DNA of 64,000 bases from Streptomyces sp. NA04227 (GTDB lineage Bacteria; Actinomycetota; Actinomycetes; Streptomycetales; Streptomycetaceae): assembly GCF_013364195.1 (NCBI RefSeq), contig NZ_CP054918.1, positions 5,135,001 to 5,199,000 on the forward strand. The letters run 5' to 3'. Position numbers and translations under genes: made by a program. This document shows positions 1,563-63,761 of the stretch, in pieces. A model generated the notes under the pieces. That model made no database searches and was not told the origin of the DNA. It saw only the letters and a program-made list of their open reading frames with translations. Numbering within the stretch: position 1 is the stretch's first letter; the number at the start of each line of letters is the position of its first letter.

Positions 1563-1639
1563 AGCCCTGAGTCCTGAGCCCAGGACCTCGGCCCTGAGGG
1601 CCTGGGCCGGGCCCCGGGTCCCGGCTCAGCCCCCTCCGC

Positions 1640-2408
1640 TCAGCAGACGTGCCCCGTCATGGTCGTCGACCAGCGCATGCCGGCGGATATGTGCTCCAGG
1701 TAGCTGTCGTCGGTGACCCTCACGGTGATCTCCACGTAGGGGAGCGCGGGGAAGAGACGGTCGCGCAGGACGTCCCAGATGTCGTAGTCGTCGAGGTCGG
1801 CGGGGCCCGTCAGGGAGCTCGGGGTCCCAGGGTTGGTCCGGGTTCTGCGCCGCCGCGACCTCACTCAGCAACGGGACGTTCTGGTACGGCCCCACGTCGT
1901 ACGAGGCCACGATGTCGGCGGCGCGGCGGGAGAACTCCTCGGCGTTGCCGGGGGTCATGACGTAGTGCGAGACGCCGTCGTAGCCGCTGCCTCCGCTCAA
2001 CTCGTAGACGTCCGCCGCCTTGCGCCGGGGTTCGAGGACGCTGCTGCCGTCCTCCGTGAGCAGGTAGCCGTCCTTGGTGACCCGCACGGTCCGGCCGAGG
2101 ACGAGCTCGTAGAGGCGTGCGTACTCGCTCCTGCGCCGCATGCCCGCCACGGCGTCCTTCCCCTGCTGCTCGGACCAGGGGTTCCTGTCCCAGCCGTGGT
2201 CCTCGTTCCTCGCCAGCTCCTCGGAGTTCTCGTCGTCCTCGTCGCGCAGGAAGCCGTTGTCCAGGTGCCACCAGACGTCCACAAGCAGGGACAGCGGGAA
2301 CACGGGCTCCTTCGGTGCTAACGGGACGTCGGGGTTGATGAGGTGCACCCTTCCCCGCAGGGTCGGGCCTTCGATGGAGTCGACGGAGACGGTGAAGATG
2401 GTGGTCAT
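1640..2408 (-). pseudogene. Hypothetical protein, reading frame broken by one extra base
   Basis: An ATG at 2408 (MTTIFTVSVDSIEG) opens a ~200-codon frame with an AAGGGG ribosome site. The frame runs well to NPDQPWDPELPDG near nt 1810, then turns into Arg/Pro-rich out-of-frame sequence ending at 1626. The neighbouring frame continues sensibly as GPADLDDYDIWDVL to IPxxGMRWSTTMTGHVC-like sequence and stops at 1640. Removing one C from the GGGCCCC run at about 1803-1809 joins both parts into a ~255-residue acidic, soluble protein. It is either a real frameshift or a base-calling error in a GC homopolymer. No family is recognised. A DNA-damage-type promoter match lies ~150 bases upstream (2559-2581). 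Confidence 0.6.
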
Positions 2409-2558: not shown

Positions 2559-2581
2559 AGAGTAGGCGCGATCACTGACAT
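2559..2581 (-). promoter_or_regulatory. RecA-NDp/PafBC-type promoter match for the gene at 1640-2408
   Basis: Reading the minus strand: ATGTCAGTG, 8 bases, TACTCT. This is one mismatch from TTGTCRGTG-N8-TANNNT, the promoter known in mycobacteria to be activated by PafB/PafC after DNA damage. The leader to the ATG would be about 140 bases. Confidence 0.45.
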
Positions 2582-25870: not shown

Positions 25871-26350
25871 TCAGGTCCGCCGCACCGTACGCACCCCCTC
25901 CCCGGGCCGCCAGATCCGCAGTACCAGGTACTTCTCTTCCTCGATCGAGGTCCGCACCACCTCGGTGAGCTCGGTCCGGAAGAGATGGAAGGCGCCCGGG
26001 TCCGGTGGGTTCACCTCGTTCGTGTAGCCGGCGCGCGCCTCGGGGTCGGTGACCTCGACGGCGCGGCCGCTCACCCGTACGTCGCCGTGCTCCATCTCCG
26101 TGCCCGGACCCGGATTGGCCTGGAGCGAGAAGCGCGGATCGCGGCGCAGGTCCAGTGCCTTGGCCGAGCGCGGCATCATGCCGAGCCACAACTCGCCGTT
26201 CAGGAAACGGACTTCGAGACCGTGCGTACGCGGCGAGCCGTCGGGGCGCAGGGTCGCGAGGACATGGTGCGCGGCCAGCCCGAAGCGCTCCTCGACCTCT
26301 CGGGCGAGCGGCGGCTCGGCTTCGGTGAAGTGTGCCCAGTTGAAGGTCAT
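25871..26350 (-). CDS. Pyridoxamine 5'-phosphate oxidase-like FMN/F420-binding protein
   Basis: 159 residues with the split-barrel fold pattern: HHVLATLRPDGSPRTHGLEVRF, LWLGMMPRSAKALDLRRDPRF, VRVSGRAVEVTD. This family uses FMN, F420 or haem; actinobacterial members are often F420-dependent reductases, but the cofactor cannot be told here. No ribosome site precedes ATG 26350. Instead, a RecA-NDp-type promoter ends six bases upstream, so the mRNA is probably leaderless. Confidence 0.8.
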   Translation of the reverse strand: MTFNWAHFTEAEPPLAREVEERFGLAAHHVLATLRPDGSPRTHGLEVRFLNGELWLGMMPRSAKALDLRRDPRFSLQANPGPGTEMEHGDVRVSGRAVEVTDPEARAGYTNEVNPPDPGAFHLFRTELTEVVRTSIEEEKYLVLRIWRPGEGVRTVRRT

Positions 26351-26356
26351 GGGTGC

Positions 26357-26379
26357 AGTGTGCCGCCCGCCACTGACAA
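26357..26379 (-). promoter_or_regulatory. RecA-NDp/PafBC-type promoter match for the PNPOx-like gene
   Basis: On the minus strand: TTGTCAGTG, 8 bases, CACACT, six bases, ATG. The upstream half is perfect; the -10 box differs from TANNNT by its first base. Confidence 0.5.
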
Positions 26380-46301: not shown

Positions 46302-46324
46302 CTGTCAGTGGGGCCGCCTAGACT
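46302..46324 (+). promoter_or_regulatory. RecA-NDp/PafBC-type promoter of pcrA
   Basis: CTGTCAGTG, 8 bases, TAGACT, nine bases before the pcrA ATG. One mismatch to the DNA-damage consensus TTGTCRGTG-N8-TANNNT. The start site is expected almost at the ATG. Confidence 0.6.
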
Positions 46325-46333
46325 CGGGAGGCG

Positions 46334-48826
46334 ATGAGCAGCCTCTTTGACGAAAGCTTCCTGGCGGATCTGCGTGCCCCGCGCGAGGAAGCGCCCCCGC
46401 CACCCGAGGATGAGGGCCCGGAAGAAGTACCCGACGACTTGTTCGGAGGGAAATTCGACGTGCCGCCACCCCGCGACGCCCACTACCGCGACGGCGCCCC
46501 GCGCCCCGTGGTGGATCCCGCTGCCCTGGTGGAGGGACTGAACGAGGAACAGCGCGCCGCCGTCGTGCACAGCGGCTCGCCCCTGCTCATCGTGGCCGGC
46601 GCGGGCTCCGGCAAGACCCGGGTGCTCACCCACCGCATCGCGTATCTGTTGGCCGAGCGCGGCGCGCACCCCGGCCAGATCCTCGCCATCACCTTCACCA
46701 ACAAGGCCGCGGGCGAGATGAAGGAGCGCGTGGAGCAGCTCGTCGGGCCGCGTGCGAACGCCATGTGGGTCTCCACCTTCCACAGCGCCTGCGTCCGCAT
46801 CCTGCGCCGCGAGTCGAAGAAGCTCGGCTTCACCTCCTCCTTCTCGATCTACGACGCCGCCGACTCCAAGCGTCTGATGGCCCTGGTCTGCCGCGACCTG
46901 GACCTCGACCCGAAGAAGTTCCCGCCGAAGTCCTTCAGCGCCAAGATCTCCGGCCTGAAGAACGAGCTCATCGACGAAGAGGACTTTGCCGACAAGGCCG
47001 CCGACGGGTTCGAGAAGACGCTTGCCCAGGCCTATGCGATGTACCAGGCGCGGCTGCGCGAGGCGAACGCCCTCGACTTCGACGACCTGATCATGACCAC
47101 GGTCAACCTGCTGCGCGCCTTCCCGGACGTCGCCGAGCACTACCGTCGCCGCTTCCGGCACGTCCTGGTCGACGAGTACCAGGACACCAACCACGCCCAG
47201 TACGCCCTGGTGCGCGAGCTCGTCGGCCGTGCGCCGGTCGAGGGCGAGGCCGCGGACATCCCGCCCGCCGAGCTGTGCGTGGTCGGTGACGCGGACCAGA
47301 GCATCTACGCCTTCCGCGGCGCCACCATCCGCAACATCCTCCAGTTCGAGGAGGACTACCCGGACGCCACGACGATCCTCCTGGAGCAGAACTACCGCTC
47401 CACCCAGACCATCCTCAGCGCCGCCAACGCCGTCATCGAGCGCAACGAGTCCCGCCGCCCCAAGAACCTGTGGACCAAGGCGGGCGCGGGCGCGCACATC
47501 ACCGGCTACGTCGCCGACACCGAGCACGACGAGGCGCAGTTCGTCGCCGACGAGATCGACCGGCTCACCGACAAGGGCGAGGCCAAGTCCGGGGACGTCG
47601 CGGTGTTCTACCGCACCAACGCGCAGTCCCGTGTCTTCGAAGAGGTCTTCATCCGGGTCGGCCTCCCGTACAAGGTGGTCGGCGGCGTCCGCTTCTACGA
47701 GCGCAAGGAGGTCCGCGACGTCCTCGCGTACCTGCGCGTCCTCGCCAACCCCGAGGACTCCGTCCCGCTGCGCCGGATCCTGAACGTCCCCAAGCGCGGC
47801 ATCGGCGACCGTGCCGAGGCCATGATCGACGCGCTCTCCCAGCGCGAACGCATCAGCTTCGCGCAGGCCCTGCGCCGCGTCGACGAGGCGTACGGCATGG
47901 CGGCCCGCTCCGCCAACGCCGTCAAGCGGTTCAACACGCTGATGGAGGACCTCCGCACGATCGTGGAGTCCGGGGCCGGACCGGCCACCGTCCTGGAGGC
48001 CGTACTCGAACGCACCGGCTATCTCGCCGAGTTGCAGGCCTCCACCGACCCGCAGGACGAGACGCGGATCGAGAACCTCCAGGAACTCGCCGCCGTCGCC
48101 CTGGAGTTCGAGCAGGAGGGCGAGGAGGCGGCCGGAGGGGTGGCCGAAGGGGCCGAGGAGACCGCGACCGGCGGTGGCCTCGCCGCGTTCCTCGAACGCG
48201 TCGCCCTGGTCGCCGACTCCGACCAGATCCCGGACGAGGAGGACGGCGGCGGCGTCATCACGCTGATGACCCTGCACACCGCCAAGGGCCTGGAGTTCCC
48301 GGTCGTCTTCCTGACCGGCATGGAGGACGGCGTCTTCCCGCACATGCGCGCGCTCGGCCAGACCAAGGAGCTGGAGGAGGAACGCCGCCTGGCCTACGTC
48401 GGCATCACCCGGGCCCGCGAGCGCCTCTACCTGACCCGCTCGACCCTGCGCAGCGCCTGGGGCCAGCCCTCGTACAACCCGCCCTCCCGCTTCCTGGAGG
48501 AGATCCCCGCCGCGCACCTGGAGTGGAAGCGCACCGGCCCCCTCGCCCCGGTCTCCTCGGGCCCCGCGGCCGGTATCGCCGCCTCGCTGTCCTCCTCCCG
48601 CTCCCGCTCGGCCGCCTCCGGCGCCTCGGGCTTCGCCACCCGCCGCGCGGGCGACAAGCCGGTCGTCGCCCTGGCGGTGGGCGACCGCGTCAACCACGAC
48701 CAGTTCGGCCTCGGCACGGTCGTCGGCGTCAAGGGCAGCGGTACGAACGCGGAGGCGACCATCGACTTCGGCGACACCAAGCCGAAGCGGCTGCTGCTGC
48801 GGTACGCGCCGGTGGAGAAGTTGTAG
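46334..48826 (+). CDS. pcrA: ATP-dependent DNA helicase PcrA/UvrD
   Basis: 830 residues. After a ~60-residue acidic Pro-rich N-terminus come the superfamily 1A motifs: Q-motif LNEEQRAAV, Walker A GAGSGKT (89-95), Ia ITFTNKAA, II VLVDEYQDTN, III VGDADQSIYAFRGA, IV QNYRSTQ, V TLHTAKGLEFPVVFL, VI YVGITRARERLYL. The C-terminal tudor-like segment (VGDRVNHDQFGLGTVVGV) that binds RNA polymerase in PcrA is present. It unwinds DNA in repair and replication-conflict processing. A DNA-damage promoter directly upstream fits this role. Confidence 0.96.
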   Translation: MSSLFDESFLADLRAPREEAPPPPEDEGPEEVPDDLFGGKFDVPPPRDAHYRDGAPRPVVDPAALVEGLNEEQRAAVVHSGSPLLIVAGAGSGKTRVLTHRIAYLLAERGAHPGQILAITFTNKAAGEMKERVEQLVGPRANAMWVSTFHSACVRILRRESKKLGFTSSFSIYDAADSKRLMALVCRDLDLDPKKFPPKSFSAKISGLKNELIDEEDFADKAADGFEKTLAQAYAMYQARLREANALDFDDLIMTTVNLLRAFPDVAEHYRRRFRHVLVDEYQDTNHAQYALVRELVGRAPVEGEAADIPPAELCVVGDADQSIYAFRGATIRNILQFEEDYPDATTILLEQNYRSTQTILSAANAVIERNESRRPKNLWTKAGAGAHITGYVADTEHDEAQFVADEIDRLTDKGEAKSGDVAVFYRTNAQSRVFEEVFIRVGLPYKVVGGVRFYERKEVRDVLAYLRVLANPEDSVPLRRILNVPKRGIGDRAEAMIDALSQRERISFAQALRRVDEAYGMAARSANAVKRFNTLMEDLRTIVESGAGPATVLEAVLERTGYLAELQASTDPQDETRIENLQELAAVALEFEQEGEEAAGGVAEGAEETATGGGLAAFLERVALVADSDQIPDEEDGGGVITLMTLHTAKGLEFPVVFLTGMEDGVFPHMRALGQTKELEEERRLAYVGITRARERLYLTRSTLRSAWGQPSYNPPSRFLEEIPAAHLEWKRTGPLAPVSSGPAAGIAASLSSSRSRSAASGASGFATRRAGDKPVVALAVGDRVNHDQFGLGTVVGVKGSGTNAEATIDFGDTKPKRLLLRYAPVEKL

Positions 48827-54026: not shown

Positions 54027-55871
54027 TCACCGCGCGCCCATCAGCTCCTCCCGCATCGTGGAGCGCAGGCGGAGGGTGCCGAGGAGGCGTTGGAAGGACT
54101 CCGCCCAGTAGCCGCCCGCGCCCGGGGAGGAGTCCTCGGTCTCGTCCGGGATCGCGGCGAGCGGTTCCAGGCGGGTGGCCTCCGAGGGATCGAGGCAGCG
54201 TTCCGCGAGGCCGAGTACCCCGCTGAAGCTCCATGGGTAACTGCCCGCGTCCCGCGCGATGTTGAGCGCGTCCACCACCGCACCGCCCAGCCTTGGAGCC
54301 CAGGGCGCGGCGCAGGTGCCCAGGAGCTGGAAGGCCTCGGAGAGACCGTGCGCGGCGATGAACCCGGCCACCCACTCGGCACGTTCGGCCGCGGGGAGCG
54401 CGGCGAGCAGCTTGGCGCGTTCGGCCAGGGACGAGGCGCCCGGTCCTCCGGCACCCGGCGCGGAGGGCTCGGCGAGCAGGGCCCGCGACCAGGCGGCGTC
54501 GCCCTGCCGGACGGCCGCCCGGCACCAGGCCGCGTGCAGCTCGTCCCGCCAGCCGTCCGCGACCGGCAGTGCCACGATCTCCTGCGGTGATCTGCCGCCC
54601 AGCGTCCGGGGCCAGAGCGACAACGGCGCCGCCTCCACCAACTGCCCGAACCACCAGGCCCGTTCACCCCGTCCGGCGGGCCGTTTGTGGACCACCCCGT
54701 CCCGCTCCATCTCGGCGTCGCACTCGCCGGGCGGCTCCACGAGCAGCGTCAGCTCCAGCGGGCCGGTCGCCGTCGGCTCGTGCGGCACCCGGCCGGGCGC
54801 CGGTGCCTTGCCCAGGCGTACGCAGGCTCCGGCACGCTCTGCCATCCTGCCCGCGAGGGCGGATCCGGGCAGGGAGGACAGGAGTTCGGCCGCGGTGGCG
54901 CGGACGTTGCGGCTGCGGTCCGTCAACGCCCTTTCCAGGAAGGGCTCGTCGGGTGCGGAGAGTCTCGCCCGCAGACAGTCCAGGAACATCAGCCGGTCCT
55001 CGGCGCGCTCCTTGGTCCAGGTGGCCGCCAGCAACTCCCGTGCCGCCGCCGGGTTGTGCACCCGTACCGACGTCAACAGGGCCACCCGCTCCGCGAACAG
55101 GCCCTCCTGCCATCTGCGTTCGACCTCGGCGGTGTCGTCGGGCGCCGGAAGCGAGGCACTGCCGCCGGGAGTGGCGCGCAGCGCGTACTTCCAGTCCGGG
55201 TTCAGCCGGGCCAGCCACAGTCCGCGCGACCCCGCGAAGGCCAGCACCTCCGCACGCAGATCGCTGCGCCCGCGCGCCGCGTCGAGCAGCGCGGGCAGCA
55301 GATGGGGCGGCGGACCGAAGCCGCGCGCGTTCGCCAACGCCAGCCACTGCGGCAGCAGTTCGAGCAGGTCCGGCGCACTGCCCCGGCGCCCGCCCGCACT
55401 GCCGGGCCGGTCGGTGAGCAGGGTGCCCAGCCGTTGTACGGCCGCGGGCGGCGGTGTCGGACGCGGATCCGGCGTGGCCACGTCGAGCGCCGGGGCGGCC
55501 GTCGCCGGACGCAGCGCCGCCCGACGGCGCACCGTCTGCACGGCGGCCGCCTCGAGCAGCGCCGTCTGCGGCAGCGCGCCCGCCCGCCCGCGCACGGGCG
55601 GCGTGCGCCGGTCCGTCCCAAGCAGCGCCGCGGTCACCAACTCGTCCCAGGCGGTGTCCTCGGTGTCCGTGGTGTCTCCGGCGGCGGTGCGCGGCATGGC
55701 TTCGGCGATGTGCGGTGCGGCTTCGGTGGTGCGCGGTGCGGCTTCGGTGGTGCGCGGCGCCTCGTCGGTGGCCTCCATCGAGTCGCCGGTGGCGGCCACC
55801 CCGTTCCCAGGGGCGCCCATCGCCTCCCCGGTCAAGGTCGCGGAGCCTGCCCTCGTCCTCACGGTCCCCAT
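54027..55871 (-). CDS. DUF5691 family protein
   Basis: About 614 residues from ATG 55871. The start is uncertain: ATG 55895 or 55988 and later GTGs are possible, because the first ~75 residues are a low-complexity Ala/Thr/Pro tail. The conserved region begins WDELVTAALLGTDRR and is helical and repeat-like (HEAT-like: WQEGLFAERVALLTSVRV, RNVRATAAELLSSLPGS). Function unknown. It lies ~190 bases downstream of the SWIM gene on the same strand, opposite the MoxR-DUF5682-VWA genes. These five gene families tend to sit together in Streptomyces, suggesting one machine. Confidence 0.75.
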   Translation of the reverse strand: MGTVRTRAGSATLTGEAMGAPGNGVAATGDSMEATDEAPRTTEAAPRTTEAAPHIAEAMPRTAAGDTTDTEDTAWDELVTAALLGTDRRTPPVRGRAGALPQTALLEAAAVQTVRRRAALRPATAAPALDVATPDPRPTPPPAAVQRLGTLLTDRPGSAGGRRGSAPDLLELLPQWLALANARGFGPPPHLLPALLDAARGRSDLRAEVLAFAGSRGLWLARLNPDWKYALRATPGGSASLPAPDDTAEVERRWQEGLFAERVALLTSVRVHNPAAARELLAATWTKERAEDRLMFLDCLRARLSAPDEPFLERALTDRSRNVRATAAELLSSLPGSALAGRMAERAGACVRLGKAPAPGRVPHEPTATGPLELTLLVEPPGECDAEMERDGVVHKRPAGRGERAWWFGQLVEAAPLSLWPRTLGGRSPQEIVALPVADGWRDELHAAWCRAAVRQGDAAWSRALLAEPSAPGAGGPGASSLAERAKLLAALPAAERAEWVAGFIAAHGLSEAFQLLGTCAAPWAPRLGGAVVDALNIARDAGSYPWSFSGVLGLAERCLDPSEATRLEPLAAIPDETEDSSPGAGGYWAESFQRLLGTLRLRSTMREELMGAR

Positions 55872-56060
55872 CCCCTTATCCCCCCATCCCTTCATCTCCC
55901 TTTCCCCGCCTGCCGATTCGCGCCGCGACTCGTCCCTCTCTGCCGATACGGGCCGCTCCCCTTCCCCACCTGCTGATACGGGCCGCACTCCTTCCCGGTC
56001 GGGATCGCGCTGGCCCGCTCCCTGCGCGCCGTGCGCGCCCGGCCGCGTGCGCCTCGCGTC

Positions 56061-57434
56061 TCAGCACAGCGACACCAGCTCCCCGCCCGGCCCGTCCCAC
56101 GCCGCGAGAGGTGTGAAGCCGCGGTGGCCGCACTCGCCGAACACGCTCACCGGGGCGCCGCCCGAGAGAGCCACCAGCCGCCACAGCCCCGCCCTGCTCC
56201 CGGCCGAAGTCGTCAGCGGAAGCGCGGAACCCTCTGCGGTGTCGACCAGTTGCCAGCGTTCGTCGTCCGGGGCCGAGGCCGGGGCCGGGGTGACCGAACG
56301 CAGAGTCACCGGCCAGGAGTCCAGCCACGGGTCGTCGCGCAACGCCGTCCCGTACTGTGCGAGCGCCTCGCCCGGACCGACGCCGGTCGGCCGGGTGGTC
56401 GCGGGCGCCGGGGCGGAGAACTGTTCGCCCAGGTCGGCGCGGAGCCCGCCGCCCGGGTGGCCGGACAGCTCCGCGTCGAGGGCGAGCCCGACCGGGAGCG
56501 CGAGCCCGGGCGCGCGGCCCGCGGCGCCGAACGACAGCAGCAGCGCCGTACGGCCGGACGCCTCGCCGTGGACCCAGGTGCGGCGGGTGACCAGGTGGCC
56601 CTCGGCGGTGTCGTAGCGGGCCAGGACCAGCCATGTGTCGCGGGCGGCGGGGCCCTCGGCGGTGGCGGGCAGGCCCACCCGGGTGCGTACCGTGGCGGCC
56701 AGTTCGGGCGGCAGGCTCTCGCGGCGCTGCCAGCCCTGCCCGAGCAGATGGAGCAGTGCGCACTCCTCCAGGAGCCGCACCGGCCAGCCCGCACCGGAGC
56801 CCGGTATCGCCCCCAACTCCCTTGCTCGCGCGGCAAGACCGGGAGCCTGGGCGTCGACCATGCGCGCGGCGGTCTCCTCCCAGAGCGCGTACCCGGACTG
56901 CTCGGCGGAGGCGAGACCGCCGCGCAGCAGATCGGCGAGGCGCTGTTCCAACTCGCTCGCGCCCGCGGTGATCCGTTCCGCGCGCCTGCGCGCCCGCTTC
57001 CGCGCGGCCTCCGGGTCGGACCCCTGCGACCGGCCCGGCCCCTGCGCGCCCGTCGTCTCCTTCTTCTTCTCTTCTCGCGCGCGCCGCGCGGTCAGCCACT
57101 CCCGCGCCCAGCCCGGCGGCTCTCCGTCGGCGGCGACCGCCGGGTCCGTACCGGACCACAGCAGCAGCAGACCGAGCGCGTGCTTGCACGGGAACTTCCT
57201 GCTGGGACAACTGCACTTGTACGCCGGGCCCGCGGCGTCGGCGAGGTCCACCACCGTCTGGTACGGCTTGCTGCCGCTGCCCCGGCACAGTCCCCACACC
57301 GTGCCCTCGCCGGTGCAGCCCGCATCGGACCACGGCCCGGCCGAGCCGAGCCTGCTTCCCGCTTTGCGCGACGAGGCGTCAGGAGCCAGTGCCAGCACCT
57401 GATCAGCCGTCCAGCGCACCCCCTGCTGAGTCAT
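56061..57434 (-). CDS. SWIM zinc-finger protein
   Basis: 457 residues from ATG 57434. An N-terminal SWIM finger, CxCx(n)CxH, is visible as KCSCPSRKFPCKHALGLLL (residues ~70-90). SWIM fingers bind DNA or proteins. The remaining ~350 residues are unrecognised, mostly helical then beta-rich (GPGEALAQYGTALRDDPWLDSWP). There is no ribosome site. A RecA-NDp-type -10 box ends seven bases before the ATG, so the transcript should begin at the start codon. It is divergent from the MoxR operon. Confidence 0.85.
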   Translation of the reverse strand: MTQQGVRWTADQVLALAPDASSRKAGSRLGSAGPWSDAGCTGEGTVWGLCRGSGSKPYQTVVDLADAAGPAYKCSCPSRKFPCKHALGLLLLWSGTDPAVAADGEPPGWAREWLTARRAREEKKKETTGAQGPGRSQGSDPEAARKRARRRAERITAGASELEQRLADLLRGGLASAEQSGYALWEETAARMVDAQAPGLAARARELGAIPGSGAGWPVRLLEECALLHLLGQGWQRRESLPPELAATVRTRVGLPATAEGPAARDTWLVLARYDTAEGHLVTRRTWVHGEASGRTALLLSFGAAGRAPGLALPVGLALDAELSGHPGGGLRADLGEQFSAPAPATTRPTGVGPGEALAQYGTALRDDPWLDSWPVTLRSVTPAPASAPDDERWQLVDTAEGSALPLTTSAGSRAGLWRLVALSGGAPVSVFGECGHRGFTPLAAWDGPGGELVSLC

Positions 57435-57441
57435 ACGAGCG

Positions 57442-57464
57442 ACCGTACGACCCGCCACTGACAA
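57442..57464 (-). promoter_or_regulatory. RecA-NDp/PafBC-type promoter of the SWIM/DUF5691 genes
   Basis: On the minus strand: TTGTCAGTG, 8 bases, TACGGT, seven bases, ATG. This is a full match to TTGTCRGTG-N8-TANNNT and predicts a leaderless, DNA-damage-induced mRNA. Confidence 0.7.
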
Positions 57465-57645
57465 CGCCCCGGCCCGAGCCCGCCGTACTCGCCCTCCTCG
57501 GCCCGCCACCCGGCATCCATCCGTCCGTCGACCTCGCAGCCCCGGCTCCCGCCTCCTCCTCCCCCTCCCTTCCCAACCCCCTTCCCACCCCGTTCCCACC
57601 TCTCCGTGATCGGTCGCGATCGGCGTTTGCGCAGGTCGGAACGGA

Positions 57646-57668
57646 TTGTCAGTGGGGTGGTGCACGGT
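57646..57668 (+). promoter_or_regulatory. RecA-NDp/PafBC-type promoter of the MoxR operon
   Basis: TTGTCAGTG, 8 bases, CACGGT; only the first base of the -10 box departs from consensus. The leader to ATG 57710 would be ~35 bases with GGAGGGGG as ribosome site. Confidence 0.6.
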
Positions 57669-57709
57669 GGGTGACATCCGATCAGGAACAGCTGGAGGGG
57701 GACGGCTTC

Positions 57710-58879
57710 ATGTCCGTGACGTCTGCGGAGTCCACACAGTCCGTGCAGTCCGCGAGCGCCGCGAGTGCCGGGAGCACCGGTGCGTCGGCGGACGGCGGCG
57801 CGCAGGCCCTGCGGCCGCACGCCGAGGACGCCTTCGCCGCCGAACTCGCCGCGCTCGCCGCCCAGGACGACCGGCCGCGCCCGGCCCGGTGGCGCCTCTC
57901 GCCGTGGGCCGTGGCCACCTATCTGCTCGGCGGCACGCTGCCCGACGGCACGGTGATCACACCGAAGTACGTGGGCCCGCGCCGGATCGTCGAGGTGGCC
58001 GTGACCACTCTGGCCACCGACCGCGCCCTGCTGCTGCTCGGCGTCCCGGGCACCGCCAAGACCTGGGTCTCCGAACATCTCGCGGCCGCCGTGAGCGGCG
58101 ACTCGACCCTGCTCGTGCAGGGCACCGCGGGCACCCCGGAGGAAGCCATCCGTTACGGCTGGAACTACGCGCGCCTGCTCGCGCACGGTCCCAGCCGCGA
58201 GGCTCTGGTACCCAGCCCGGTGATGCGGGCGATGGCCGACGGCATGACGGCCCGGGTCGAGGAGCTGACCCGTATCCCGGCCGATGTGCAGGACACGCTC
58301 ATCACGATCCTGTCCGAGAAGACGCTGCCGATACCGGAGTTGGGCGACGAGGTACAGGCCGTCCGCGGCTTCAACCTCATCGCCACCGCCAACGACCGGG
58401 ACCGCGGCGTGAACGATCTGTCCAGCGCGCTGCGGCGCCGGTTCAACACGGTCGTCCTGCCGCTTCCGGACAGCCCGGAGGCGGAGGTGGACATCGTGTC
58501 CCGGCGCGTGGACCAGATCGGCCGCTCGCTCGATCTGCCCGTCGCCGACGGCGGCATCGAGGAGATCCGCCGGGTCGTCACCGTCTTCCGCGAGCTGCGC
58601 GACGGCATCACCGCCGACGGCCGTACGAAGGTGAAGTCCCCGAGCGGCACCCTGTCCACCGCCGAGGCGATCTCGGTGGTCACCAACGGGCTTGCCCTCG
58701 CCGCCCACTTCGGCGACGGCGTGCTGCGCCCGAGCGACGTCGCCGCGGGCATTCTCGGTGCCGTCGTCCGTGATCCGGCGGCGGACCGGGTGGTCTGGCA
58801 GGAGTACCTGGAGGCGGTCGTGCGCGAGCGCGAGGGCTGGAAGGACTTCTACCGCGCCTGCCGTGAGGTGAGCGCGTGA
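57710..58879 (+). CDS. MoxR-type AAA+ ATPase
   Basis: 389 residues. After a Ser/Ala-rich N-terminus the AAA+ core has Walker A GVPGTAKT (111-118), sensor 1 FNLIATANDRDRG and Arg finger region SSALRRRFNTVVLPLP. A C-terminal lid follows. MoxR ATPases remodel or insert cofactors into client proteins and work with VWA-domain partners, which fits the VWA gene two positions downstream. Start overlap ATG-independent; the stop overlaps the next GTG by four bases, implying coupled translation. Confidence 0.92.
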   Translation: MSVTSAESTQSVQSASAASAGSTGASADGGAQALRPHAEDAFAAELAALAAQDDRPRPARWRLSPWAVATYLLGGTLPDGTVITPKYVGPRRIVEVAVTTLATDRALLLLGVPGTAKTWVSEHLAAAVSGDSTLLVQGTAGTPEEAIRYGWNYARLLAHGPSREALVPSPVMRAMADGMTARVEELTRIPADVQDTLITILSEKTLPIPELGDEVQAVRGFNLIATANDRDRGVNDLSSALRRRFNTVVLPLPDSPEAEVDIVSRRVDQIGRSLDLPVADGGIEEIRRVVTVFRELRDGITADGRTKVKSPSGTLSTAEAISVVTNGLALAAHFGDGVLRPSDVAAGILGAVVRDPAADRVVWQEYLEAVVREREGWKDFYRACREVSA

Positions 58880-61470
58880 CCCTCGTCGAATCGCCCGCGC
58901 CGGAGCGCGCCGTACCGGAGTCGGAGGCCGCGCCCCCTGTGGCATGGCCGCTGCTGCTCGGCGTGCGCCACCACGGCCCGGGTTCCGCCCGTGCCGTACG
59001 CGCGGCCCTGACGGAGGCCCGGCCGCGCACCGTACTGATCGAGGGCCCGCCCGAGGCCGACGAGCTGATCCGGCTCGCCGCCGAGGAGGGCATGCGCCCG
59101 CCCGTCGCACTCCTCGCCCATGTCGTCGACGAACCCGGCCGGTCCTCCTTCTGGCCGTTCGCCGAATTCTCCCCGGAGTGGGTCGCGATCCGGTGGGCGC
59201 TCGACCACGACGTACCGGTCCGCTTCATCGACCTCCCCGCCGCCCACAGCCTGGCCCAACGCGCCCCGGAACAGGACGCCCAGGCACAGGACGCCCCGGT
59301 GCCGGAGGCAACGAGGGAAGAAGAGGGGAAGGGAGGGGAGACAGGAGAGTCGGGAGAGACAGGAGAGAGGGAGGAGAGCGGGGAGAACGGGGAGAGCGGG
59401 GCGGGGAACGGCGACGAGCCCGGTGAGGAAGTGCGGGTCGATCCGCTGGCCGTGCTCGCCCGTACCGCCGGATACGACGACCCGGAGCGCTGGTGGGAGG
59501 ACGTCGTCGAGCACCGGGGCGGCGGGCACGAGGGGGCCTTCGCCCCCTTCGAGGCGCTCGGCGAGGCGATGACGGCGCTGCGCGAGACGTACGGCACCGG
59601 TGGCCACGACCGGGACGAGGTGCGCGAGGCGTATATGCGGCTCCAACTGCGGGCGGCGCAGAAGGAGTTCGGCCAGGAGGTGGCGGTGGTCTGCGGCGCC
59701 TGGCACGTACCGGCGCTGCGGACGCGCACCACACTGACCGCCGACCGTGCCGTCCTCAAGGGGCTGCCCAAGGTCAAGGCCGAGATGACCTGGGTCCCGT
59801 GGACGTACCGCAGGCTGTCGCGGGCGACCGGTTACGGCGCGGGCATCGAGTCGCCGGGCTGGTACGGCCACCTCTTCCACTGCGCGGACCGGCCCGTCGA
59901 GCGCTGGATGACCAAGGTCGCCGGGCTGCTCAGGGAGGAGGACCGGCTGGTCTCCTCCGCCCATGTCATCGAGGCCGTGCGCCTCGCGGATACGCTCGCC
60001 GCGATGCGCGGCCGCCCGCTGGCCGGTCTCGCGGAGACGACGGACGCGATCCGTGCGGTGATGTGCGAGGGCTCCGACGTACCGCTGGACCTGGTGCGCG
60101 ACCGGCTCGTCGTCGGTGACGTACTGGGGGAGGTGCCCGACTCCGCACCGGCCGTACCGCTGCAACGCGACCTGACCCGTCTGCAGCGGCGGCTGCGGCT
60201 CAAGCCGGAGGCACTGGAGCGCGAACTCGACCTCGACCTGCGCTCGGAGAACGACGGCGCCCGCAGCCGTCTGCTGCACCGGCTCCGGCTGCTCGGTATC
60301 GGCTGGGGCGAACCCGCGGCCGGCCGCACCGGTACCGGAACCTTCCGTGAGAGCTGGCGGCTGCGCTGGGAGCCGGAGCTCGCGGTGCGGGTCGCGGAGG
60401 CGGGCGTGTGGGGCACGACGGTGCTCGGCGCGGCGACCGCGAAGGCGGAGCAGGAGGCGGTCTCGGCCACCGTCCTGGCCGACATCACGGCGCTCGCCGA
60501 GCACTGCCTGCTCGCCGAACTCCCGGACGCCCTCCCCGTGGTGATGCGCGCCCTGGCCGACCGCGCCGCGCTCGACGCCGATGTGGGCAGGCTCGCCCAG
60601 GCCCTGCCCGCCCTGGTGCGCTCGCTGCGCTACGGCGATGTACGGGGGACGGACACGGCCGCGCTCACCGAAGTGGCGGCGGGGCTGGCCGAGCGCATCT
60701 TCGTGGGGCTGCCGCCCGCCTGCGTCGCACTGGACGGCGAGGCCGCCGAGGAGATGCGGCGCCATCTGGACGCGGTGCACTCCGCGGTGGGGCTGCTCGA
60801 AGAGGTGCCGCACCCGGGCCACACGTCCTCGCGTGAGCCGACTCCTGGGGCGGGCCCGGCAGTTGAGGCGGCGGAGGGTTCTGGACCATCCCTGTCCGAA
60901 GAGGCGGTGGCCGCGCCCTCTGGGATGCGCGTCCGCTGGTGGCGCGTGCTGCGTACGCTCGCCGCCCGGGAGACGGTGGCCGGGGTGCTGCGCGGGCGAT
61001 GCGCCCGACTCCTCCTGGACGAGGGCGAGTTGACGGCCGAGGAGGCGGCCCGGCTGATGGCGCTCGCGCTGTCCAGGGGCACCCCGCCCGACCAGGCGGC
61101 AGCGTGGATCGAGGGGTTCGTGGGCGGCGGCTCGGGCGGCATGCTCCTGGTCCACGACGAGCGGCTCCTCGCTCTGGTCGACCAGTGGCTCACCCAGGTA
61201 CCCGACGCCGCGTTCAACGATGTGCTCCCACTGTTGCGGCGCACCTTCTCCGCGTACGAGACGGGCGTCCGCAGAACGCTCGGCGAGCTGGTGCGTCGGG
61301 GCCCGGCGGGGGCCAACTCCCTTGCCGGGGGCACGGGTTCGGCGCCGTCCGGGTTCGCACCGGAACTCGATCCCGTACGCGCGGACGCCGTACTGCCGGT
61401 GCTGTACCTGCTGTTGGGCGATCCACGGGGCGTGAGCGGTGCGGCGGAGGTCTCGGGGTGCGGGACTTGA
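58876..61470 (+). CDS. DUF5682 family protein
   Basis: 864 residues from GTG 58876. It begins with a conserved segment LLLGVRHHGPGSARAVRAAL and VLIEGPPEADELIRLA, then WVPWTYRRLSRATGYGAGIESPGWY. Its first ~300 residues are ChaN/TraB-like in flavour (an Rx-HHGPGS and EGPP motif pair), which I regard as weak similarity. A variable Glu/Gly/Ser insert sits at ~145-180 (purine-only DNA). The rest is helical. Function unknown. Between MoxR and VWA genes, overlapping both, it is probably the client or effector of this ATPase system. Confidence 0.82.
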   Translation: MTLVESPAPERAVPESEAAPPVAWPLLLGVRHHGPGSARAVRAALTEARPRTVLIEGPPEADELIRLAAEEGMRPPVALLAHVVDEPGRSSFWPFAEFSPEWVAIRWALDHDVPVRFIDLPAAHSLAQRAPEQDAQAQDAPVPEATREEEGKGGETGESGETGEREESGENGESGAGNGDEPGEEVRVDPLAVLARTAGYDDPERWWEDVVEHRGGGHEGAFAPFEALGEAMTALRETYGTGGHDRDEVREAYMRLQLRAAQKEFGQEVAVVCGAWHVPALRTRTTLTADRAVLKGLPKVKAEMTWVPWTYRRLSRATGYGAGIESPGWYGHLFHCADRPVERWMTKVAGLLREEDRLVSSAHVIEAVRLADTLAAMRGRPLAGLAETTDAIRAVMCEGSDVPLDLVRDRLVVGDVLGEVPDSAPAVPLQRDLTRLQRRLRLKPEALERELDLDLRSENDGARSRLLHRLRLLGIGWGEPAAGRTGTGTFRESWRLRWEPELAVRVAEAGVWGTTVLGAATAKAEQEAVSATVLADITALAEHCLLAELPDALPVVMRALADRAALDADVGRLAQALPALVRSLRYGDVRGTDTAALTEVAAGLAERIFVGLPPACVALDGEAAEEMRRHLDAVHSAVGLLEEVPHPGHTSSREPTPGAGPAVEAAEGSGPSLSEEAVAAPSGMRVRWWRVLRTLAARETVAGVLRGRCARLLLDEGELTAEEAARLMALALSRGTPPDQAAAWIEGFVGGGSGGMLLVHDERLLALVDQWLTQVPDAAFNDVLPLLRRTFSAYETGVRRTLGELVRRGPAGANSLAGGTGSAPSGFAPELDPVRADAVLPVLYLLLGDPRGVSGAAEVSGCGT
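59306..59411 (+). repeat. Purine-only tract inside the DUF5682 gene
   Basis: Almost 100 bases are A/G only, made of GGAGA/GGGGA-type units, and encode a variable Glu/Gly/Ser insert. It could form G-rich secondary structure. Confidence 0.7.
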
Positions 61471-62771
61471 CAGAGCGGGCGGAGACGAACACGAGGGCAG
61501 GGGGCGTCGTGACGAAGGCAGCAGGGGGCGCGGTGGCGAAGGAAGCCGGGAGCACGGAGCCGGATGTGCGGGACGCGCCGGACGTGCCGGACGCGCCGGA
61601 CGTGAACGACGAGGCGTCGGCGGCCGACGAACGGCTGCGGCGGTGGCGGCTGGTGCTCGGTGGGGAGGCGGCGGACGGTACCGGGCGGGCGCTCACCGGT
61701 CGGGACGCGGCCATGGACGGGGCACTGTCCGCGCTGTACGGGAGCAAGGACAAGGACGGGCGGGGCAAGGACCGGTCGGCGGGGCTCGGGGCCTCCGCGC
61801 CCTCGGTCGCACGCTGGCTCGGGGACATCAGAACGTACTTCCCCTCCTCCGTGGTCCAGGTGATGCAGCGCGACGCGATCGACCGCCTTGGCCTCAACAC
61901 CCTGTTGCTCGAACCGGAGATGCTGGAGGCGGTCGAGGCGGACGTCCATCTCGTCGGCACCCTGCTCTCGCTGAACAAGGCGATGCCGGAGACCACCAAG
62001 GAGACCGCGCGCGCCGTGGTCCGCAAGGTGGTCGAGGACCTGGAGAAGCGGCTGGCCACGCGGACCCGCGCCACCCTGACCGGCGCTCTGGACCGCAGTG
62101 CGCGGATCAGCAGGCCGCGCCACCACGACATCGACTGGAACCGCACCATCGCGGCCAACCTCAAGCACTACCTGCCCGAGTACCGCACCATCGTCCCGGA
62201 GCGGATGATCGGCTACGGCAGGGCGGCCCAGTCGGTGAAGAAGGACGTGATCCTCTGCATCGACCAGTCGGGCTCGATGGCCTCCTCGGTCGTCTACGCC
62301 TCGGTCTTCGGCGCCGTCCTCGCCTCGATGCGGTCGATCGCGACCCGGCTCGTCGTCTTCGACACGGCCGTGGTCGACCTGACCGATCAACTGGACGACC
62401 CGGTGGACGTGTTGTTCGGCACCCAGCTCGGGGGCGGTACGGACATCAACCGGGCGCTGGCGTACTGCCAGTCGCAGATCACCCGGCCCGCGGAGACCGT
62501 GGTGGTGCTCATCTCGGACCTGTACGAGGGCGGCATACGTGACGAGATGCTGAAGCGGGTGGCGGCGATGAAGGCGGCCGGGGTGCAGTTCGTGGCCCTG
62601 CTCGCCCTCTCCGACGAGGGCGCCCCCGCCTACGACCGCGACCACGCCGCGGCACTCGCCGCCCTGGACGCCCCCGCCTTCGCCTGCACCCCCGACCTCT
62701 TCCCGGACGTGATGGCCGCGGCGATCGAGAAGCGCCCGCTGCCGGTACCGGACAAGGAGGTGGTGCGGTAG
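61458..62771 (+). CDS. VWA-domain protein (CoxE-like)
   Basis: 437 residues. GTG 61458 has GGAGG 8 bases upstream and overlaps the DUF5682 gene by 13 bases. An acidic/basic low-complexity N-terminus (~75 residues, with DAPDVPDAPDV repeats) and a helical region precede a VWA domain with MIDAS DQSGSM (Asp269, Ser271, Ser273), Thr in GGGTDINRAL and Asp in VVVLISDLYEGG. VWA partners of MoxR ATPases recognise the substrate and bind a metal. It completes a MoxR-DUF5682-VWA operon. Confidence 0.9.
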   Translation: MRDLTERAETNTRAGGVVTKAAGGAVAKEAGSTEPDVRDAPDVPDAPDVNDEASAADERLRRWRLVLGGEAADGTGRALTGRDAAMDGALSALYGSKDKDGRGKDRSAGLGASAPSVARWLGDIRTYFPSSVVQVMQRDAIDRLGLNTLLLEPEMLEAVEADVHLVGTLLSLNKAMPETTKETARAVVRKVVEDLEKRLATRTRATLTGALDRSARISRPRHHDIDWNRTIAANLKHYLPEYRTIVPERMIGYGRAAQSVKKDVILCIDQSGSMASSVVYASVFGAVLASMRSIATRLVVFDTAVVDLTDQLDDPVDVLFGTQLGGGTDINRALAYCQSQITRPAETVVVLISDLYEGGIRDEMLKRVAAMKAAGVQFVALLALSDEGAPAYDRDHAAALAALDAPAFACTPDLFPDVMAAAIEKRPLPVPDKEVVR

Positions 62772-62900: not shown

Positions 62901-63761
62901 TTGGGCAGTGCAGGACATGCGGGGAGCGCGGCGGCGCCGCAGTGCGTCCTCAGCAGCGACGAGGACCCGGACGAGAGCTGGGGCACGGCGCTTCAGGCCA
63001 GGGGACTGTTCACGCCGGTGGGGGGCGGGGGACTCCGGACGGTCCAACTGCTGGGCTGCGCGCCGAGTGGCGCTCTGGCGAGGAGCGCCGGTCACCTCGG
63101 TGGACGCTGTGCCGAGGCGGGGAACGCGGACTTCGCTCTGCTGGACACGGAGGGCCTCGGCATGGGGTCGTACTTCGTGAACGACGTGACCGTGACCGCG
63201 GCCGGACCCTCGCGGTACGGGGACGGCCTGCTGGATCTGACGGTGAGCCTGTGGTGCGCGAGCGCGCTGCCGCGGTCCGGTGAGCTGTGGGACCTGATCC
63301 GGCACGGACGGCTGGACCGGCCCGGCATGTGGCGCTCCTTCGGGCCGAAGGGGCGCCTGGCCTGGCTGTCGGTGGCGCTGACCTCCCGTACGTACCGGCA
63401 CCGTGAGAGCCCGGAGGACGCGCCTCCCGGGCAGGTGTACGTACTGGACGGCACGCAGGTGGTCGACGAGGACAGCTTCTACTGCGCGCTCGGCGAGGCG
63501 GTCAACGGACCCGGCGGCTACTTCGGCTGGAATCTGTCCGCCCTGGACGACTGCCTCAGGGGCCGGTGGGGTGCCGCCCCGCCGTTCACGCTGCGGTGGC
63601 TCAACTCCGGGGTCGCGAAGTCGCGGTTGCGCGAGCGCATCGACGGTCGCATCGACGCCCGGGACGACGCCCGGGACTCGCAAGGCAAAGCACCCTCCAC
63701 ACTCTTCGACGTTCTTCTGGAGATCTTCGGGGAGCACGGGATCGAGGTCGAGTTGAGGTAG
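62901..63761 (+). CDS. Barstar-domain protein with novel N-terminal domain
   Basis: 286 residues from TTG 62901, the only in-frame start near GGGGGAG. The last ~110 residues form a barstar (barnase inhibitor) fold: YVLDGTQVVDEDSFYCALGE, GPGGYFGWNLSALDDCL, FTLRWLNS and FDVLLEIFGEHGIEVELR. The first ~170 residues are not recognised. No RNase toxin gene is seen beside it. It may inhibit a polymorphic toxin or housekeeping RNase. It lies 129 bases after the VWA gene, on the same strand, separated by a G/A-rich stretch of degenerate 9-base repeats (~62800-62840). Confidence 0.8.
   Translation: MGSAGHAGSAAAPQCVLSSDEDPDESWGTALQARGLFTPVGGGGLRTVQLLGCAPSGALARSAGHLGGRCAEAGNADFALLDTEGLGMGSYFVNDVTVTAAGPSRYGDGLLDLTVSLWCASALPRSGELWDLIRHGRLDRPGMWRSFGPKGRLAWLSVALTSRTYRHRESPEDAPPGQVYVLDGTQVVDEDSFYCALGEAVNGPGGYFGWNLSALDDCLRGRWGAAPPFTLRWLNSGVAKSRLRERIDGRIDARDDARDSQGKAPSTLFDVLLEIFGEHGIEVELR

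Follow-up and report, generated by a model that had tools for sequence, protein, structure and literature searches.

RecA-NDp promoters, the elements associated with the activator PafBC, combine a TTGTCRGTG box, an 8-bp spacer and a TANNNT -10 element. Work by Ahel in 2002 reportedly placed such a promoter at recA of Streptomyces rimosus, and Gamulin is said to have described RecA-NDp promoters in Streptomyces in 2004. PafBC is reported to activate mycobacterial damage genes via this motif (PMC6789036, PMC8223512) and to be switched on by single-stranded DNA (PMC11804915), and a 5-fold rise after UV has been reported for SCO6735, which has a RecA-NDp-type promoter (PMC5087735; also PMC9411070). 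MoxR ATPases, with YehL as one of seven subfamilies, are described as generally co-occurring with a VWA protein (PMC3893208). Here, we analyzed a 64-kb window (the whole stretch considered) of the 7.9-Mb single-contig genome of Streptomyces sp. NA04227, in which a divergent cluster encodes SWIM zinc-finger and DUF5691 proteins on one side and MoxR, DUF5682 and VWA_CoxE proteins on the other. The promoters heading the two sides are strongly supported by sequence, and damage-type control of both operons is very probable.

The gene content of the cluster resembles that of yehL-yehM-yehP-yehQ in Escherichia coli K-12, which encode MoxR, DUF5682, VWA_CoxE and SWIM proteins in a row. The window cluster has the same MoxR, DUF5682, VWA_CoxE order with a SWIM gene adjacent, and its MoxR is likened to YehL by gene order. 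The E. coli cluster differs in being a single co-directional run, in the lack of a DUF5691 match in YehQ, and in its neighbors, the WGR gene yehF and the DUF4132 gene yehI. Systems of the RavA-ViaA, NorQ and CbbQ type also pair a MoxR ATPase with a VWA partner gene, whereas the present cluster adds DUF5682, SWIM and DUF5691 subunits and damage-type promoters. In the literature searched, we found no link between a MoxR-DUF5682 cluster and damage promoters and no paper pairing MoxR with DUF5682; a search on DUF5682, DUF5691, YehQ and YehM, covering part of the matches, returned no use of a DUF name.

A first-pass annotation, made from the letters alone, had placed two TTGTCAGTG sites between the DUF5691-SWIM genes (minus strand) and the MoxR-DUF5682-VWA genes (plus strand), and both were recovered at its coordinates. 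Pfam agreed with the five families that it had named (DUF5691, SWIM, AAA_5 for MoxR, DUF5682 and VWA_CoxE). Its cluster interval of 56061-62771 covers four of the genes and leaves the DUF5691 gene outside (Table 1). The MoxR, DUF5682 and VWA_CoxE genes have overlapping ends, with the GTG start of the VWA gene lying within the end of the DUF5682 gene. The DUF5682 protein of the window shares 69-78% identity with Streptomyces proteins among the 120 best matches listed. Tandem repeats occupy the N-terminal end of the DUF5691 open reading frame (ORF), and because the N-terminus is so repeat-rich, the true start of this protein is uncertain. A Barstar-domain gene lies directly 3' of the VWA gene.

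Paired promoter sites and their conservation

The SWIM-side site agrees with the RecA-NDp consensus throughout, with an exact TTGTCRGTG box and an 8-bp spacer followed by TACGGT. On the MoxR side the box and spacer also match. The RecA-NDp identity assigned earlier to this plus-strand site stands for its box and not for its -10 element, where the first base is C; because the -10 is CANNNT, we name the site RecA-NDp-like only. The cluster thus shares the box, the spacer, the TANNNT of the SWIM side and the company of recA and repair genes with known RecA-NDp/PafBC promoters, and differs from them in the MoxR-side CANNNT and in carrying two promoters back to back. Streptomyces may in fact read the -10 as YANNNT, since C is found there in all 77 named loci described below and T to C at the first -10 base is the commonest single departure in the genome (10/38 one-mismatch sites). 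The SWIM mRNA is likely leaderless, as suggested by an ATG only 7 nt past the -10, and the MoxR ATG lies 41 nt past its -10, behind a GGAGG-like site.

The motif is far more frequent in this genome than its control. Exact TTGTCAGTG-N8-TANNNT occurs 16 times against none for the reversed control pattern, and with up to two mismatches there are 145 matches against 46. Two other Streptomyces genomes of the phylum sample (296 genomes) hold 14 and 26 exact copies (control 0), and the remaining 116 phylum-sample genomes in this count hold 0-2 each. Within the window, seven matches with up to three mismatches were found against 1.69 expected, the cluster pair alone being perfect.

Both sites are conserved with the divergent layout in Streptomyces and its relatives. 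DUF5682 was matched in 117 of the 121 genomes of the genus sample (a few weakly) and in 21/296 genomes of the phylum sample. From the 117 genomes we chose 40 congeneric loci, strong matches only, and all 40 carry the five genes, the divergent layout and both sites. The SWIM-side site scored 12/12 in 39 and 11/12 in one, and the MoxR-side site 12/12 in one, 11/12 in 35 and 10/12 in four. Over the 492,640 bases of these loci there were 40 matches at 12/12, 36 at 11/12 and five at 10/12; block-shuffled copies gave none, none and seven, respectively.

A second set of named loci comprised the best 80 of at least 586 candidates, nearly all Streptomycetaceae, including S. griseus, S. noursei, S. anulatus, Actinacidiphila and Streptacidiphilus. 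Three (L164, L167 and L198) were left out as lacking SWIM and, in two cases, also MoxR. The 77 kept all have SWIM, MoxR and DUF5682 genes, divergent and with both motifs; 68 have all five genes, and nine lack a DUF5691 or VWA match. The SWIM-side site scored 12/12 in 68 and 11/12 in nine, with the T, A and final T of the -10 invariant, and the MoxR-side site 11/12 in 74, 10/12 in two and 9/12 in one. The first SWIM ATG lies 7 nt past the -10 in 50 loci, 2 nt in 22, 6 nt in four and 64 nt in one. The distance between the starts of the two motifs is below 100 bp in 66 loci, 100-300 bp in three, 300-1500 bp in seven and 6251 bp in one; at the window cluster it is 182 bp. In L222 (Wenjunlia), the two promoters with their genes stand about 6.3 kb apart, a separation suggestive of inserted DNA.

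Conservation is concentrated in the sites themselves. The 9-bp box holds 1.92 and 1.96 bits per column (SWIM and MoxR side, respectively), the spacer 1.01 and 1.54, and the -10 hexamer 1.55 and 1.47, against 0.33 and 0.36 in the 60 bases upstream, where values are lowered by the ungapped, motif-anchored rows. A coincidental housekeeping promoter is disfavored by a box at ~1.9 bits per column amid little-conserved flanks, and also by the 11 bp from TTGTCA to the -10, which is not the spacing of about 17 bp.

A variant of the motif is present in a second genus of the same class (f3, g4), in which 38 of 39 genomes have DUF5691. We read 22 loci there, 20 from the 38 matching genomes and two fetched whole (L100 and L102). 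In the two whole loci the genes are co-directional, and a SWIM-type protein and DUF5691 share one ORF; Pfam found the SWIM finger in L100 and not in L102. In all 22 loci, nTGTCGGTG-N8-TAnAnn, which does not keep the final T of the -10, was the best or equal-best match before the SWIM-type gene; in 18 loci the SWIM finger follows 238-297 nt later. In the other four (L102, L282, L284 and L293), no CxC...CxH finger was found by pattern, the gene aligns from about residue 134-140, and the promoter lies 78-84 nt before the part that can be aligned to the remainder of the SWIM protein, which would fit loss of the finger with retention of the promoter. Forward matches numbered 12 at 11/12 and 11 at 10/12, with none of at least 10 on the reverse strand; twenty shuffles of all the loci gave 13 at 10/12 and none at 11/12. 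The promoter class is therefore kept across two gene orders.

Table 1. Coordinates of the cluster and of other features in the 64-kb window
Feature	Position	Strand	Remarks
DUF5691 protein	about 54027..55988	-	Pfam PF18944, 564 bits; domain about 54042-55643
SWIM zinc-finger protein	56061..57434	-	Pfam PF04434; ATG 7 nt past -10
Predicted RecA-NDp-type promoter, TTGTCAGTG-N8-TACGGT	57442..57464 (read 57464-57442)	-	before SWIM-DUF5691
Predicted RecA-NDp-like promoter, TTGTCAGTG-N8-CACGGT	57646..57668	+	before MoxR-DUF5682-VWA; CANNNT -10
MoxR AAA+ ATPase	57710..58879	+	Pfam AAA_5, 126 bits; YehL-like position by gene order
DUF5682 protein	58876..61470	+	Pfam PF18934, 994 bits
VWA_CoxE protein	61458..62771	+	Pfam PF05762, 203 bits; GTG start chosen from sequence
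PcrA/UvrD helicase gene	46334-48823	+	
Motif CTGTCAGTG-N8-TAGACT	46302-46324	+	9 nt before ATG of PcrA/UvrD gene
PNPOx-like gene	25874-26350		
Motif TTGTCAGTG-N8-CACACT	26357-26379	-	6 nt before PNPOx-like gene
Gene without Pfam match	1629-2408		product 260 aa
Motif ATGTCAGTG-N8-TACTCT	2559-2581	-	150 nt before gene 1629-2408
Tandem repeats, 21 and 30 bp	55682-55771 and 55896-55996		N-terminal end of DUF5691 ORF
Barstar-domain protein	62901-63761	+	directly 3' of VWA gene (Pfam)

Genes behind the motif and candidate regulators

The gene company of the motif argues for a PafBC-type damage regulon in Streptomyces, in a data set that lies outside S. venezuelae. The genome carries two Pup-ligase-family genes and, close by, genes for PafB (WYL, WCX) and PafC (HTH_PafC, WYL, WCX); the presence of pafB and pafC only permits PafBC-dependent activation. 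Of 54 genome sites with at most one mismatch, two are the cluster's own, 40 + 3 were examined and nine were left out; the 40, all outside the window, comprise all 15 other exact sites and 25 picked one-mismatch sites. An ORF within 260 bp downstream was found for 37 of the 40 sites, and it starts 6-7 nt past the -10 at 11 of these. Domains were scanned for 29 of the 37 genes, and 12 have repair or replication domains: RecA, UvrB, RuvC, MgsA, DnaX, DnaE, XseA, UDG, RecD2-like, DinG-like, O6-methylguanine methyltransferase (MGMT) and a PD-DExK nuclease. The PcrA gene of the window is likely another member of this regulon (Table 1).

Related genes stand behind the motif in other Streptomyces genomes. 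In two of them, 38 exact sites were read in 36 stretches; the motif precedes recA, uvrB, UDG, RecD2-like and DinG-like genes in both, and rpsF in one and a methyltransferase gene in one. Ten more downstream proteins were scanned, among them UvrA-, UvrD-, PcrA- and DnaN-type proteins. Another Streptomyces genome has a WGR and PQQ/propeller protein behind an exact motif (L263:891-2348, minus strand), its WGR domain being reminiscent of E. coli yehF, and a different SWIM protein behind another (L267:1169-2542, minus strand). Two further motif copies of the window precede a PNPOx-like gene and a gene without a Pfam match (Table 1). Another PNPOx-type gene has an exact motif elsewhere in the genome, and a protein similar-looking to the unmatched one stands behind another site (L152). 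As to mycobacteria, MoxR1 and MoxR2 of M. smegmatis are reported to be lower without pafBC (PMC5656591).

Gene fusions and the DUF5682 N-terminal domain

The five products probably form one machine. The first-pass annotation had proposed as much and had named rare co-occurrence of the families as an outcome that would tell against it; this was not seen, as every one of the 18 phylum-sample genomes in which DUF5691 exceeds the cut-off (five of them with a partial match) also has DUF5682, and the proposal is favored by co-occurrence and fusions together. DUF5682 is fused to VWA in L097, L101, L111-L115, P0180 and P0206, and the SWIM-type and DUF5691 proteins are fused in L100 and L102, so the fusions point to these protein pairs. 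Three phylum-sample genomes (G124, G204 and G259) have DUF5682 without DUF5691. Second DUF5682 copies occur in five Streptomyces genomes (L111-L115), where DUF5682 and VWA form one ORF near a MoxR gene, and many more second copies with long open frames are present in the genus sample. SWIM and DUF5691 are absent from the 12-13 kb fetched around L111-L115 and are therefore not always needed.

DUF5682 may contain a Tiki-type domain, which we consider somewhat better supported than not. In its model (predicted local distance difference test, pLDDT, 82), the N-terminal domain (about residues 24-345) alternates strands and helices and the rest is mainly helical; the DUF5691 model is mostly helical (pLDDT 85), with generic HEAT/ARM matches only. 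The Tiki/TraB signature is GxxH ... E ... GxxH, with these residues at strand ends. The DUF5682 N-terminal domain has this signature, which is seen in YbaP too, and H32, E56, G274 and H277 lie at strand ends in the model. These four residues do not vary across 18 diverse DUF5682 proteins, nor when E. coli YehM is added as the nineteenth, and G29 is conserved in at least 90% of the 18. In an alignment of 88 sequences, E56, G274 and H277 remain invariant and H32 is kept in at least 90%. Compared with the Tiki/TraB/ChaN superfamily, for which YbaP serves as an example, DUF5682 shares the GxxH, E and GxxH segments and differs in its domain of about 320 residues with a long helical extension, and the similarity is not significant alone.

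Three weak tests agree on this domain, none of them significant alone. By hhalign against the YbaP family, the 88-sequence profile matched the first GxxH/E and the last GxxH segments separately and in order, and the 18-sequence profile matched the last GxxH segment and another segment only, both at a probability of at most 1.5%. Apart from DUF5682 itself, ChaN (3/19 members) and TraB (2/19), both Tiki-type, were the sole Pfam families to match more than one of the 19 members; all matches were sub-threshold (best E 0.0089), and the four of five seen in detail lie at the profile end, over a GxxH segment. The first-ranked Foldseek match in BFVD was a TraB protein (probability 0.99, E 0.042, template modeling score 0.41 by target). 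Catalysis by DUF5682 is putative, and we hold it slightly less probable than its absence.

Proposed function and competing explanations

We propose that DNA damage would lead to single-stranded DNA and thereby to activated PafBC, which together with the housekeeping RNA polymerase would fire the two back-to-back RecA-NDp-type promoters. The MoxR AAA+ ring and the VWA adaptor with its metal-ion-dependent adhesion site (MIDAS) would then remodel a bound target, DUF5682, whose Tiki/TraB-like domain would sit on a helical arm, would be the enzymatic subunit, and the SWIM-finger/DUF5691 pair would recognize the target. This target would be protein attached to, or stuck on, damaged DNA or complexes of replication and transcription. 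For the whole explanation, from PafBC-fired damage promoters to a MoxR-VWA-DUF5682-SWIM-DUF5691 machine, we estimate a probability of about 0.6. A vWA protein fused to a metallopeptidase in the MoxR-vWA pair of jumbo phages (PMC7824862) offers a precedent for coupling a hydrolase to a MoxR-VWA motor. Action on proteins trapped on damaged DNA is suggested by the gene company behind the motif and by the SWIM finger, not by direct evidence, and we regard it as doubtful. The most specific form of the proposal is improbable: a MoxR-VWA motor and a Tiki-superfamily metallohydrolase (DUF5682), aimed by SWIM-DUF5691, would strip or cleave such proteins, with yehL-yehM-yehP-yehQ as a relative without DUF5691.

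Several observations weigh against this explanation. The MoxR-side -10 departs from TANNNT in 77/77 named loci, where it is CANNNT, and there may be a weak LexA input on this side. Seventeen of the 29 scanned genes downstream of the motif lack any domain for repair or replication (a sigma factor, methyltransferases, SUKH-4, leucine-rich repeat (LRR) proteins, unknowns and others). None of ten other actinobacterial DUF5682 loci (L099, L101 and L103-L110) has a match of at least 11/12, and five have scattered 10/12 matches of mixed quality, so control through the motif would be lineage-bound. The S. venezuelae LexA study mentions a first search by which the PafBC motif of M. smegmatis seemed not to be conserved in that species, and leaves the question open (PMC9380542). 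No test of the Tiki similarity of DUF5682 passed its threshold, the matches listed contained no PDB relative, and an hhalign control against DUF5691 scored about equally, which lowers our confidence in a Tiki-type domain. We infer PafBC activation in the genus, assembly of the complex, hydrolase activity and the target, as well as damage induction and the biochemical function of the cluster as such; what the target would be is conjecture.

The best-placed competitor is an assembly or metal-insertion chaperone like RavA-ViaA/NorQ, which would mature a damage-related enzyme and in which the Tiki-like domain would be structural rather than catalytic. Known MoxR proteins are described as maturing specific complexes and co-occurring with VWA proteins (PMC3893208), and the VWA_CoxE match, a weak similarity to ViaA and the sub-threshold Tiki evidence all suit a chaperone. 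The invariance of H32, E56, G274 and H277 across the small DUF5682 set, which with the near-invariance of H32 and invariance of the other three extends to the 88 sequences, speaks against a structural role, and we consider a chaperone possible but rather unlikely.

The regulation could also differ from our proposal, in that the promoters respond to damage through a regulator other than PafBC alone, with ClgR reading the motif or LexA adding a layer. Work cited in one report has ClgR recognizing the same promoter (P1) in mycobacteria, but according to that report M. smegmatis without pafBC is blocked in the induction of P1-driven recA transcription (PMC5656591). In the genome studied here pafB and pafC are present, and the motif is found at the PD-DExK gene about 17 kb away. 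For LexA, the best SOS-box score within 200 bp of the MoxR-side motif was 8/10 in 32 of 75 loci against a random expectation of 18.4, but scores of 9/10 were rare (3/75 against 1.8 expected) and 10/10 was never reached; the genome's own recA region scored only 8/10 by the same simple scoring. We consider a regulator other than PafBC alone quite improbable.

An anti-phage or other conflict system with DNA damage as the infection signal is less probable still: MoxR has a weak NCBIfam match to the defence protein MadB (45 bits, far below the cut-off of 475) and immunity-type domains stand behind the motif (SUKH-4 and TriTu, with GmrSD_N once in another genome), but none of six proteins had a PADLOC match at E 0.01 or better, and the presence of DUF5682 in nearly all congeneric genomes with a constant layout in the loci examined is unlike patchy defence islands.

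A damage-induced machine built on MoxR, VWA_CoxE, DUF5682, SWIM and DUF5691 would provide a widespread, uncharacterized system of Streptomyces and the related E. coli proteins with a role that can be put to experiment. The existence of a PafBC-type damage regulon in Streptomyces, a question that the S. venezuelae LexA study (PMC9380542) left open, is touched by these data too. Should DUF5682 prove to be an active Tiki-like enzyme, a catalytic effector would be added to MoxR-VWA systems.

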